Source: Chloroflexota bacterium
Lineage (GTDB): Bacteria; Chloroflexota; Limnocylindria; QHBO01
Direction: 5' to 3'
DNA length: 61,154 nt
NCBI GenBank assembly: GCA_013816405.1
Contig: JACDEL010000007.1
Location: forward strand, 1 to 61,154
Part shown: positions 34,483-38,734 of the stretch, piece by piece
Layout: the number at the start of each line of letters is the position of its first letter
How positions within the stretch are numbered: the first letter of the stretch is position 1
Program-made: the position numbers and the translations under genes
The notes under the pieces: model-generated
What the model was told of the DNA's origin: nothing
What the model saw: only the letters and a program-made list of their open reading frames with translations
Databases searched by the model: none

Positions 34483-35838
34483 TCACGGGTTCGATGCCGC
34501 GGCTCCCGCCCGTGCACTTTTCGGCATGGTCGTGGGTAGCGTGACGATGAAGCAGGTGTGGCCCGGCTCGCTCTCTAGGTCGATTCGGCCACCATGGCGA
34601 ACAACAGCCTGGTGGCTGATGTGCAGGCCAAGCCCACTCCCGATCCCCGGCGGCTTGGTGGTGAAGAACGGCTCGAAGATCTTCGAGGCGACATCGGGAG
34701 GGATGCCAGGGCCGGAGTCGCAGATCGTGACGGCAACCTCGTCGCCAGACGATTTGGCTCGAATGGAGAGCGCGCCGCGCCCATCCATGGCATCGGCGGC
34801 ATTGTCGATCAGGTTGGTCCAGACCTGGTTCAGCTCCGAGCCCCAGGCCTCGATCTCGGGCAGGTCCGGGTCGTAGTCGCGGGTCACCTCGATCTCTCCG
34901 ACCTTGAGCTTGTGGCGCAGGATCACGAGCGTGTCGTCGAGGCCCTTGCGCACGTCGATGCGCTGCACGGGAGCCTGGTCGAGGTAGGCGTACGACTTCA
35001 CAGCGCCCACGATCTCGCTGATCCGGTCCCCGGCCATGCGCACCTCCCCGATCAGCGTCTCGACCGTCGCAGACGCTGCCAGCCAGGCCGCCGCCTCCCG
35101 GGCAGCAACGGCATCCATGCCGGCGAAGGCGCCACGCAGCTCATCGGTCGTCCAGCCTGCATCCACCAGTGCTGCAGCCATCTGCGTGTCGCCGATCAAT
35201 CCCTCGATCTCGTCCACCGCATCGGCTCGGTCGAGGGCGTCGAGCGAGGCATGGCCCGCCGGCCGGAGCAACGTGAGCGCGTCGGCCGGATGGAGCGCGT
35301 TGCGTTCGGCAATCGCCCGGTCGAGGGAGTCCACCGAGCGCCGGATCGCCGCGGCCGGGTTGTTCAGCTCGTGTGCCAGGCCCGCCGCAAGGGTGCCAAG
35401 ACCCGCCAGCTTCTCGCGCTGCCGCAGGGTGGCCTCCATGCCGCGCAGCCGACCAATGACGGTGCGGATGATCCCCAGCGCCGCATCCGGTTCCCCGGTG
35501 AGCAAGTCCCGCACGGCCAGGTACGGGATGCGCAGCACCTCTGCGTCCGTGACGGCCCGGACCGACGCCATCCGCTTGCCCCGCTCGAGCGCGGCCAGCT
35601 CGCCCTGGATCGCGCCCGGCCCAACACGCGCAAGCGGGATCTCGCTCGTCCCGGAGCGCTTCGTCACGTCGAACTCGCCGGAGACAACGACGAACAGGTC
35701 ATCGGCCTGATCGCCCTCGGTGATGAGGAAGTCGCCCTCGCGCAGCGACATCGGGATGGCCTGCGCCGCGAGCCGCTGCAGGTGCTCGTCGGGCACCTCG
35801 GCGAAGATCGGCGTCGCCCGCAGGGCGTCCAGCGCCAT
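34483..35838 (-). CDS. Sensor histidine kinase with N-terminal cyclic-nucleotide-binding domain
   Basis: 451 aa, soluble. Residues 1-120 form a cNMP-binding domain with the pocket block GAIQGELAALERGKRMASV (Glu80, Arg89). Then a dimerisation helix with phospho-acceptor His156 in LAGLAHELNNPAAA, N box DNAADAMDG, G1 DSGPGIPP, F box IFEPFFTTKP and G2 GSGLGLHIS. It begins 4 bp after the upstream receiver-flavoprotein gene, its evident partner. A longer in-frame upstream extension lies within that gene and is rejected. Confidence 0.9.
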   Translation of the reverse strand: MALDALRATPIFAEVPDEHLQRLAAQAIPMSLREGDFLITEGDQADDLFVVVSGEFDVTKRSGTSEIPLARVGPGAIQGELAALERGKRMASVRAVTDAEVLRIPYLAVRDLLTGEPDAALGIIRTVIGRLRGMEATLRQREKLAGLGTLAAGLAHELNNPAAAIRRSVDSLDRAIAERNALHPADALTLLRPAGHASLDALDRADAVDEIEGLIGDTQMAAALVDAGWTTDELRGAFAGMDAVAAREAAAWLAASATVETLIGEVRMAGDRISEIVGAVKSYAYLDQAPVQRIDVRKGLDDTLVILRHKLKVGEIEVTRDYDPDLPEIEAWGSELNQVWTNLIDNAADAMDGRGALSIRAKSSGDEVAVTICDSGPGIPPDVASKIFEPFFTTKPPGIGSGLGLHISHQAVVRHGGRIDLESEPGHTCFIVTLPTTMPKSARAGAAASNP

Positions 35839-35842
35839 CGGC

Positions 35843-37507
35843 CTAGAGCCCGGACAGGTACTGGTGGACGAACTGCACCGCCATGGCGCCCTCGCCGACC
35901 GCGCTGGCGATCCGCTTGACGGACCGATGACGCACGTCGCCCGCCACGAAAACCCCGGGAAGGCTCGACTCAAGCAGGAATGGGTCGCGATCGAGGCCCC
36001 ATCCTGCGGGTCGCTTGCCGTCCTCGGTGAGCTGCGCGCCGGTCAGCACGAAACCACCCGGATCGCGACTCACGGTTCCCTCCAGCCAGTCGGTGCGCGG
36101 CTGCTGGCCGATGAAGACGAAGATGGCGGAGATCGGCAGCCCCTCGTCGCCGTTCGGTCCTGAGTTGGTTACGGAAGCCAGGTGCCCATCGCCGTGCGCG
36201 GCCTTGACCGATGTCTCGTACCGGACCTCGAGGTTCGGGACAGCCGCGATCTGATCGACCAGGTACTGGCTCATACCCGACAGCTCGGGTGTGCGGACCA
36301 TCAGCAGGACGCGCTTCGCGAAGCGGGAGAGGTACACGGCAGCCTGGCCGGCTGAGTTGCCTCCACCCACCACCCCGACCTCCTGGTCGCGGTAGAGGAC
36401 GGCCTCGGTGGTCGCTGCACCGTAGTAGACGCCCGCTCCGGCGAGGTCGGCCGCACCGGGCACGTCGAGCTGCCGATAGCTGACCCCCGTCGCAACCACC
36501 ACCGTCTGGCAGGACACGTCCCCTGCCGCGGCAAGCGTCACAACCCGGTACGGGTCTTCGCGCCGGATCCCGGTCACCTCATCCGGCGACAGGATCTCGG
36601 CGCCCAGACGACGCGCCTGCGCCAGGCCGCGGCGCGCGAGGTCGCCGCCGGAGAGTCCCGCCGGAAAGCCGAGGTAGTTCTCGATCCGGCTGGTCGTGCC
36701 GGCCTGCCCGCCCGGGGCTTCCTGCTCGACCAGGATCGTCTTCAGCCCCTCGCTGGAGGCGTAGACCGCCGCCGCCAGTCCAGCCGGCCCGCCTCCCACG
36801 ATCACCACGTCATAGAACGGCAGCGCGGCCTTCGTCTGGAGCCCCACCTTCTCGGCAATCTGCCGGGTCGAGGGGTCGCGCAGGGTGGAGCCGTCGGCGA
36901 ACAGGATCAGCGGGATGGCCGGGTCTATCGGCTCGTCGCCTCCCAGGGAAGCGGCGAGCTTTCGCCCCTCGGCGTCCTCGGTGGGATCGAGCCATGCATA
37001 CGGGACCTGGTTGCGCGTCAGGTAGTCCCGGATCGCGTGGCCGCCCGGCGCCCAGCGGCCGGCCAGCAGCCGCACGCCCTCGAAGGCGGGGCGGAAGGTG
37101 GCGCTCCAGTCCGAGAGCAGGTCATCGAGGATCGGATACAGCTTCTCTTCAGGCGGATCCCAGGGCTTGAGGATGTAGTGGTCGAGGCGGATGTCGTTGA
37201 TGGCCTTGATCGCGACATCGGTGTCCGCATACGCAGTCAGCAGCACGAGCCGTGCATCGGCCTGCAGCTCGACCGCCTGCGCCAGGAACTCGATCCCCGT
37301 CATCTTGGGCATCCGCTGGTCGACCATGAAGAGCGCAACCGCAGCGCCGCGCAGGGTCAGCTGGCGAACCGCCTCCAGGGCGTCGTGGCCTGAGTTGGCG
37401 GCCACGATCCGATACTGGTTCCCGTACCGCGCGCGGAGGTCGCGCTCGACGGCGCGCAGCACGGGCAGATCGTCGTCGACGGCAAGGATGACCGGCTTGG
37501 TGGCCAT
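35843..37507 (-). CDS. Fused response regulator-thioredoxin reductase-like flavoprotein
   Basis: 554 aa. Residues 1-130: receiver domain (acidic DDD 11-13, phospho-acceptor Asp63, Thr91, Lys114). 145-225: a thioredoxin/glutaredoxin-like domain without CxxC. 230-554: FAD/NAD(P)H domains with GGGPAG (238-243), a second GGGNSAG and the FAD-binding end GVFVAGDVR. The TrxR redox motif CATC is replaced by GAAT, so it cannot reduce thioredoxin in the usual way. TAGACT lies 9 nt before the ATG. Its kinase partner follows. Probably a signalling flavoprotein sensing NAD(P)H or redox state. Confidence 0.9.
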   Translation of the reverse strand: MATKPVILAVDDDLPVLRAVERDLRARYGNQYRIVAANSGHDALEAVRQLTLRGAAVALFMVDQRMPKMTGIEFLAQAVELQADARLVLLTAYADTDVAIKAINDIRLDHYILKPWDPPEEKLYPILDDLLSDWSATFRPAFEGVRLLAGRWAPGGHAIRDYLTRNQVPYAWLDPTEDAEGRKLAASLGGDEPIDPAIPLILFADGSTLRDPSTRQIAEKVGLQTKAALPFYDVVIVGGGPAGLAAAVYASSEGLKTILVEQEAPGGQAGTTSRIENYLGFPAGLSGGDLARRGLAQARRLGAEILSPDEVTGIRREDPYRVVTLAAAGDVSCQTVVVATGVSYRQLDVPGAADLAGAGVYYGAATTEAVLYRDQEVGVVGGGNSAGQAAVYLSRFAKRVLLMVRTPELSGMSQYLVDQIAAVPNLEVRYETSVKAAHGDGHLASVTNSGPNGDEGLPISAIFVFIGQQPRTDWLEGTVSRDPGGFVLTGAQLTEDGKRPAGWGLDRDPFLLESSLPGVFVAGDVRHRSVKRIASAVGEGAMAVQFVHQYLSGL

Positions 37508-37516
37508 GAAGCGTCG

Positions 37517-37522
37517 AGTCTA
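37517..37522 (-). promoter_or_regulatory. -10 box (TAGACT) of the receiver-flavoprotein/kinase operon
   Basis: TAGACT ends 9 nt before the ATG; 12 bp from the opposing -10 box of the divergent gene. Confidence 0.6.
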
Positions 37523-37534
37523 CGATGCAGGCGC

Positions 37535-37540
37535 TAGCAT
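37535..37540 (+). promoter_or_regulatory. -10 box (TAGCAT) of the FAD oxidoreductase gene
   Basis: TAGCAT, 6 nt before the GTG start. The whole divergent interval is only 39 bp. Confidence 0.6.
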
Positions 37541-37546
37541 CGGCGC

Positions 37547-38734
37547 GTGACCAGGCCCGACCATGCCGATGTCGTGATCGTCGGCGGCGCGATCGTGGGC
37601 AGTGCCGTGGCGACGTTCCTCAAGAGGCGACCCGACTGGAACGGCCGCGTCCTCGTTGTCGAGCGCGACCCGACCTTCCGCACCTCCTCGACCACCCTCT
37701 CCGCTGCCTCCATCCGCCTCCAGTTCAGCACCCCGTTGAACATCGAGATCAGCCGCTTCGGCGTCGAGCTGATCAAGCATCTCGAAACATGGCTCGGCGT
37801 CGACGGCCAGCCGCCGCCGGAGGTCGATTTTGTGGAGGGCGGCTACCTCTTCCTGGCCAGCGACGCCGGGCTGCCGATCCTCGAGAGCAACCACGCCGTG
37901 CAGCGCGAGCACGGAGTGGAGGTGGCGCTCCTGACGCCGATGGAGCTGCGCGCACGATTCCCGTGGCTCAACGTCGACGACCTGGCGGGTGGCTCGCTCG
38001 GACTGGCCGATGAGGGCTGGTTCGACGCCTATGCCCTGCTGCAGGCCTTCCGTCGCAAGGCGCGATCGCTGGGCGCCGAGGAGGTCACCGGCGAGGTCGT
38101 CGAGATCGAGCGCGATGGCGGACGTACAGCTGGCGTGCGACTTGCCGATGGACGCCGCATCACGGCGGACTGGGTCGTGAATGCGGCAGGCCCCCGCGCG
38201 GCGGGAATCGCCGCCATGGCCGGCCTCCAGCTGCCGGTCAGCTCGCGCAAGCGGATGGTCTTCCACTTCGACTGCCGCACCCGGGTCGCCAGTCCGCTGA
38301 CGATCGACACATCCGGGGTCTACTTCCGACCGGAGGGGCCGAACTACATCGCAGGCTCTTCCCCGCATGGCGAGGAGCCGGACCCCGACACCTTCGACCT
38401 CGAGGTCGATCGGTCCTGGTTCGAGAAGGTGATCTGGCCGGCGATTGCTCACCGGGTCCCGGCCTTCGAGGCCATCCGCCTGCTCGACGCCTGGGCCGGC
38501 CACTACGAGGTGAACACGCTGGACCACAACGCGGTGATCGGGCCGCACCCCGATCTTCCCAACTTCCTGTTCGCCAACGGCTTCTCGGGGCACGGCCTGC
38601 AACACGCCCCGGCCGCCGGTCGAGCACTGGCTGAATGGATCGCAACAGGCGACTACGAGACGATCGACATGCGGCCCCTGGGCTATGAGCGAATCGCCGC
38701 CAACCAGCCCTACCGGGAGCTGAACGTCATCTAG
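37547..38734 (+). CDS. FAD-dependent amine/amino-acid oxidoreductase (DadA/FOXRED1-like)
   Basis: 395 aa from GTG. N-terminal dinucleotide fold ADVVIVGGAIVGSAVATFL, then STTLSAASIRLQF, and the substrate region ending HYEVNTLDHNAVIGPHP...NFLFANGFSGHGLQHAPAAGRALAEWI, a hallmark of the DAO/sarcosine-oxidase/FOXRED1 group. Catalyses oxidation of an N-methyl or amino acid with FAD; exact substrate unknown. Start supported by the leaderless box. Confidence 0.87.
   Translation: MTRPDHADVVIVGGAIVGSAVATFLKRRPDWNGRVLVVERDPTFRTSSTTLSAASIRLQFSTPLNIEISRFGVELIKHLETWLGVDGQPPPEVDFVEGGYLFLASDAGLPILESNHAVQREHGVEVALLTPMELRARFPWLNVDDLAGGSLGLADEGWFDAYALLQAFRRKARSLGAEEVTGEVVEIERDGGRTAGVRLADGRRITADWVVNAAGPRAAGIAAMAGLQLPVSSRKRMVFHFDCRTRVASPLTIDTSGVYFRPEGPNYIAGSSPHGEEPDPDTFDLEVDRSWFEKVIWPAIAHRVPAFEAIRLLDAWAGHYEVNTLDHNAVIGPHPDLPNFLFANGFSGHGLQHAPAAGRALAEWIATGDYETIDMRPLGYERIAANQPYRELNVI

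Follow-up and report, generated by a model that had tools for sequence, protein, structure and literature searches.

The window, i.e. the whole stretch of 61,154 nucleotides from a Chloroflexota bacterium analysed here, encodes a two-gene signalling system, in which a sensor histidine kinase adjoins a response regulator whose receiver is fused to a glutaredoxin-like and a thioredoxin reductase-like domain, both devoid of their redox dithiol (here written Grx* and TrxR*). Judged from sequence comparison, this loss is a conserved design and not decay. Chance is no explanation for it, since the fusion has relatives at no fewer than 585 loci, the cysteines are lost in all 104 complete fusions compared, and dN/dS lies between 0.075 and 0.089 in each of the three domains.

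Organization of the locus

The regulator gene (P0001; 35843-37507, minus strand, 554 amino acids, stop codon included in the coordinates) runs from an ATG at 37507 to a TAG ending at 35843. It is followed by the kinase gene (P0003; 34483-35838, minus strand, 451 amino acids), which encodes a soluble protein with a CRP-type domain, a DHp region with a helical insertion and an HATPase domain. The ATG of the kinase at 35838 lies 4 nt past the TAG of the regulator and is likely the true start, rather than a TTG at 35973. The AF2 model of the regulator has a mean pLDDT of 86.8, that of the kinase model being 84.7. Two open reading frames had been proposed for 34483-37507 by the first-pass annotation; both are real and correctly placed, and only small corrections were needed.

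The gene upstream of the regulator is divergent and the likely next gene downstream also lies on the opposite strand, so that the operon probably consists of these two genes only. The upstream gene encodes a DAO-family FAD oxidoreductase (37547-38734, plus strand), and only 39 nt (37508-37546) lie between its start codon and that of the regulator, which implies that the two genes share a very short promoter region. The regulator-kinase locus gave no matches in scans for promoters, terminators and Rfam families. The source genome contains one intact copy of the pair, plus a truncated one: the C-terminal 167 amino acids of a second kinase are found at G000:C13:4911-5348 (L216:4872-5372, minus strand), on a contig which also bears transposase-like sequence.

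Domain structure of the regulator and loss of both dithiols

Pfam analysis of the regulator detected Response_reg at residues 7-119 and Pyr_redox_2 at residues 232-540. The receiver domain (residues 1-125; 37133-37507, minus strand; PF00072, 5.4e-14, above cut-off) has an intact phosphorylation site with D12/D13, the phospho-acceptor D63, T91 and K114. A glutaredoxin-like domain without cysteines follows at residues ~142-225 (36833-37084, minus strand). It was recognized by a match of residues 149-221 to the mycoredoxin model TIGR02200 (E=7e-8) and by the structure model, where it folds as beta-alpha-beta-alpha-beta-beta-alpha; the position of its CxxC reads W152-A-P-G-G156. The remaining part is a TrxR-like FAD/NAD(P)H domain (residues 230-554; 35846-36820, minus strand; PF07992, 4.8e-34, 118.5 bits with a cut-off of 26.1), whose top sequence matches in the PDB are thioredoxin reductases. 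By alignment, the site of the lost TrxR dithiol is Y362-G-A-A-T-T-E368 (36404-36424, minus strand). Here the C-A-T-C-D-G of thioredoxin reductases has become A-A-T-T-E-A (A364-A-T-T367-E368), after an inserted G363. The first-pass annotation was right that CATC is replaced; its replacement "GAAT" is one residue off, as CATC aligns with A364-A-T-T367. Its claim that CxxC is missing from both the TrxR and the thioredoxin-like domain holds as well, and the 554 residues contain a single cysteine, C333.

Low-Mr thioredoxin reductases and AhpF have the FAD/NAD(P)H fold in common with the regulator, which differs from them in the absent dithiol, in an additional "GWxLxRxP" insertion and in the NADPH motif HRRxxxR, which reads VRTPELS. 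The core FAD/NAD residues are kept. Another dithiol-free flavoprotein, the TrxR-type ferredoxin-NADP reductase, was considered as a relative and rejected: the PDB matches give 7e-45 for thioredoxin reductase versus 9e-17 for ferredoxin-NADP reductase, and the model ends with a helix at residues 533-553 and has no C-terminal extension over the flavin. All three domains are under purifying selection, as a simple Nei-Gojobori count against the nearest relative of the same genus gave dN/dS values of 0.075 for the receiver, 0.078 for Grx* and 0.089 for TrxR*.

Conservation across the family

The conservation analysis comprised 104 full REC-Grx*-TrxR* proteins, taken from relatives, plasmid records and 80 named loci of a genome scan that yielded at least 585 relatives. 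They stem from about nine phyla, including Chloroflexota, Cyanobacteriota, Acidobacteriota, Actinomycetota, Deinococcota, Pseudomonadota, Bacteroidota, Gemmatimonadota and Thermodesulfobacteriota. Wherever aligned (103-104 homologues), D12, D63, T91 and K114 of the receiver are invariant, and position 13 is D or E. A survey of fused homologues for the missing cysteine pair, as suggested by the first-pass annotation, found CxxC absent from the TrxR site in 104/104 and from the Grx site in 104/104. The former TrxR site has instead become Y-G-[ASG]-[ASG]-x-x-E, with Y362, G363 and E368 invariant in all 104, and serine stands in place of the first Grx cysteine in 90 proteins and of the second in 58.

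A conserved cysteine pair elsewhere in the fold would speak for ordinary thioredoxin reductase activity, and no such pair exists among the 104 fusions. The candidate substitute, C333 (69/104) with a cysteine at position 372 (67/104), was rejected, as the two are not kept as a pair and the window protein does not have the second. That ordinary activity persists by way of cysteines elsewhere is hardly credible. The overall fold and the similarity to TIGR01292 agree with it, but the regulator scores 230.9 bits with this equivalog model, below the curated cut-off of 343.45, it has only the one cysteine, no cysteine column across the family is conserved above 69/104 and CxxC occurs anywhere in only 5/104. 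The sequence thus already contradicts this reading.

Origin of the dithiol-free class

A phylum-wide search and three sequence fetches delivered the set on which two classes were distinguished. Class A (48 sequences) consists of Grx-TrxR proteins of about 400 amino acids with the same domain order as the window protein. Unlike the latter, they keep both dithiols, WCxDC in the Grx and CATCDG in the TrxR part, have no sensor domain and no adjacent kinase of the family; none was found near the fetched class A genes. PF00462 (glutaredoxin) matches the class A protein L189 at 6.9e-11, whereas it gave no match at E<=1 with the window regulator. The FAD/NAD core is common to both classes, and the full HRRxxxR motif is missing in class A, too. 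In class B the TrxR dithiol is absent, and most members carry a receiver or CRP-type domain; L044, L159 and L160 are members without a sensor. Class-B-specific invariants are Y362, E368, Q388, Y415, W503, R507 and R532.

In a quick maximum-likelihood tree rooted with canonical thioredoxin reductases, in which many inner branches are weak, class B forms one clade (SH-aLRT 100) and class A forms another (89) as its sister. Since the cNMP and the sensor-less forms of class B nest among the REC forms, the sequence-based tree is best read as a single loss of the dithiol at the base of class B and a later exchange of sensors. With essentially one event, the association of dithiol loss with sensors has no independent replicates.

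A further reading of the family-wide loss is that TrxR* is a non-catalytic pseudoenzyme, serving as a scaffold or docking platform that depends on NAD(P)H or FAD. Two findings speak for it: both cysteine pairs are gone throughout the family, and Grx* evolves faster than the receiver among genomes of the same family. However, the residues for FAD and NAD(P)H and the new class-specific invariants are kept, and dN/dS of the TrxR* domain is low, so that we regard this reading as improbable.

A further sequence, L190, has no CxxC in its TrxR part and groups with neither class. L156 (1153-2400) combines a Grx part with CxxC, sharing up to 81% identity with class A, and a TrxR part without CxxC, sharing up to 68% identity with class B. 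As the two parts affiliate with different classes, L156 was rejected as an evolutionary intermediate; it is either a mosaic protein or, lying at the end of a contig, a chimera of the assembly. In L215 (1331-2986, minus strand), a single frame continues from a receiver and Grx-like domain directly to a CRP-type domain and a kinase, with the TrxR part missing, which is either a natural hybrid or an assembly artefact.

The sensor kinase and its pairing with the regulator

Pfam identified cNMP_binding (residues 30-113) and HATPase_c (residues 335-436) in the kinase; HisKA gave no match. The kinase boxes are conserved, with H156, N346 (N), D374-x-G-x-G (G1), F391 (F) and G400-x-G-L-G (G2). In the model, the CRP-type barrel is followed by a long helix bearing H156 (117-180), small helices (184-237), a second long helix (243-288) and the ATPase domain. 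The small helices form an insertion (residues ~181-236; 35132-35298, minus strand) that separates the long helices of the DHp region. The codon of the phospho-acceptor H156 is located at 35371-35373 (minus strand), within the motif G-L-A-H-E-L-N-N-P. Phosphotransfer from His156 to Asp63 had been proposed by the first-pass annotation; both residues are where it placed them, and they are conserved in 81/81 and 103/103 homologues, respectively. From the operon structure and these conserved residues we infer that the kinase and the receiver-flavoprotein very likely form a phosphotransfer pair, and the earlier proposal of a cognate kinase with a dithiol-free receiver-flavoprotein is supported.

The pairing recurs across the family. 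A kinase-family HMM was run on 105 fusion loci flanked on each side by 1.2 kb or more, some of them close relatives. In 79 loci the kinase it detected is less than 400 nt away (in 71 of these downstream on the same strand), and in nine more it lies farther off within the flank. In the available flanks of the other 17 no kinase of the family was found; these fusions may be served by a kinase encoded far away, or by none. Some regulator loci (L040, L050, L053, L061, L064, L077, L083 and L110) have two or three kinases of the family each, which suggests several inputs to one output.

Regarding the input, the kinase was proposed to sense through a cyclic-nucleotide-type pocket. The phosphate-binding cassette GE...R-x-[AS] is indeed present in the window kinase as GELAALERGKRMAS, and the Chloroflexota relatives have it too. 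As a family-wide trait, cNMP sensing was rejected, because the signature occurs in only 19 of the 102 aligned CRP-type domains of the wider set. The source genome (G000, 2.5 Mb) gave 33 matches to class III nucleotidyl cyclases (PF00211), mostly in frames of ~1000-1400 amino acids. Together with the canonical cassette, these make sensing of cAMP plausible in this lineage only. For c-di-GMP, the other ligand suggested, there is no support here.

Proposed mechanism and output

By binding to the CRP-type domain, a ligand, which in this lineage may be cAMP, would control autophosphorylation of H156, from which the phosphate would pass to D63. The phosphorylated receiver would then change the movement or docking of the TrxR* dimer and in this way control the reaction of NAD(P)H with FAD. 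Electrons would go to an external acceptor and not through the protein's own disulfide; candidates are oxygen, a quinone, a small electron carrier or a partner thioredoxin. The flavoprotein would thus be the output and not the sensor, with stress tolerance as the likely setting. That phosphorylation gates such a dithiol-independent NAD(P)H-flavin reaction, i.e. active chemistry without a disulfide, seems reasonably likely, and oxygen is a possible, if rather doubtful, acceptor. A more specific proposal, to which we give a low probability, is that the kinase and receiver or a fused CRP-type domain control a TrxR-derived, dithiol-free flavin oxidase with oxygen or a diffusible compound as electron acceptor; if true, a redox molecule such as H2O2 would be a two-component output in many bacterial phyla.

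The regulator model is far closer to a thioredoxin reductase in its flavin-reducing state (5mh4; TMt 0.93, rmsd 2.4) than to the flavin-oxidising form of that enzyme (5mjk; TMt 0.64, rmsd 7.3). This would fit a direct hydride transfer with no dithiol stage and is suggestive only, as the conformation that AF2 gives to a model is weak evidence.

Two directions had been left open by the first-pass annotation. In the opposite one, NAD(P)H/NAD(P)+ or oxygen would set the flavin state of TrxR*, and this in turn the phosphorylation of the receiver or the phosphatase activity of the kinase. Kept nucleotide and flavin sites with a lost catalytic dithiol are what a redox sensor without turnover would show, and the canonical cNMP pocket is missing in many kinases of the family. 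However, in the cNMP-Grx*-TrxR* relatives a CRP-type domain sits directly on the same reductase, and there is neither receiver nor kinase to be informed. Moreover, sensor-less class B proteins exist, and the neighbour survey revealed no recurring DNA-binding regulator beside the pair. We consider a sensing flavoprotein unlikely. Since only the reductase can receive the signal in the cNMP-TrxR* fusions, the direction from sensor to flavoprotein is favoured and TrxR* is probably the effector. The sensor-less members also indicate that class B proteins can do without a fused regulatory domain.

Relation to known systems

According to published classifications (PMC9739842, PMC9953108, PMC5847659), a receiver joined to a pyridine nucleotide-disulphide oxidoreductase is a named class of response regulators, "TrxB" in the P2CS/Galperin classification, exemplified by SCO7298 of S. 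coelicolor with its kinase SCO7297. The window protein has the N-terminal receiver, the C-terminal oxidoreductase domain and the partner kinase of this class; we found no difference in kind. Streptomyces members (L042, L099, L112, L119) are also without CxxC. In the accessible parts of the literature on the class, the original censuses aside, neither missing dithiols nor a function is mentioned, and our literature search found no paper joining a fused response regulator, a cyclic-nucleotide-binding domain and a thioredoxin-disulfide reductase. The combination of receiver and TrxR is thus already named, and the class-level loss of the dithiol seems to be undescribed. The NCBI product "cNMP-binding-domain thioredoxin-disulfide reductase" has the same dithiol-free body, on which its own CRP-type domain replaces the kinase and receiver of the window system. 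Genome annotation lists these proteins as "thioredoxin reductases" or "TrxB" regulators, yet the redox dithiol is absent in every member examined. With the shared loss, the exchange of receiver plus kinase for a CRP-type domain and the heat-shock operons described below, the role of a switchable, disulfide-free TrxR fold in stressed cells has become testable.

Stress operons and further gene neighbourhoods

Genes for cNMP-TrxR* proteins are located on actinobacterial plasmids (L229, L230, L231, L232). In Nocardia, Streptomyces and Rhodococcus these plasmid genes overlap or adjoin clpB, a zinc-ribbon trxA and a zf-UBP gene. In Nocardia farcinica, dnaK, grpE, cbpM and a gene for a J-domain protein belong to the run as well, and DUF1931 follows the reductase. 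These heat-shock operons point to stress protection for the cNMP-TrxR* branch, not for the kinase-paired form of the window.

Small UBP-type zinc-finger proteins adjoin class B genes (L042, L043, L044, L160, L233, L234, L241) in Actinomycetota and Rhizobiales. A Pfam survey of 142 neighbour proteins revealed no recurrent third partner beyond zf-UBP (4), SDRs and MotA being scattered. Among 301 Chloroflexota genomes, zf-UBP is present in 25 of the 38 class B carriers vs 45 of the 263 others (Fisher p=1.7e-9, uncorrected for kinship), with no excess in class A carriers. It was rejected as an obligatory partner: zf-UBP genes occur alone too, and of eight lower-ranked plasmid zf-UBP loci one, perhaps two, have a class B-like neighbour. 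On cyanobacterial plasmids (L041, L227, L228), the regulator sits after glgX and an AGE-family epimerase gene, and in L228 a transposase gene follows it.
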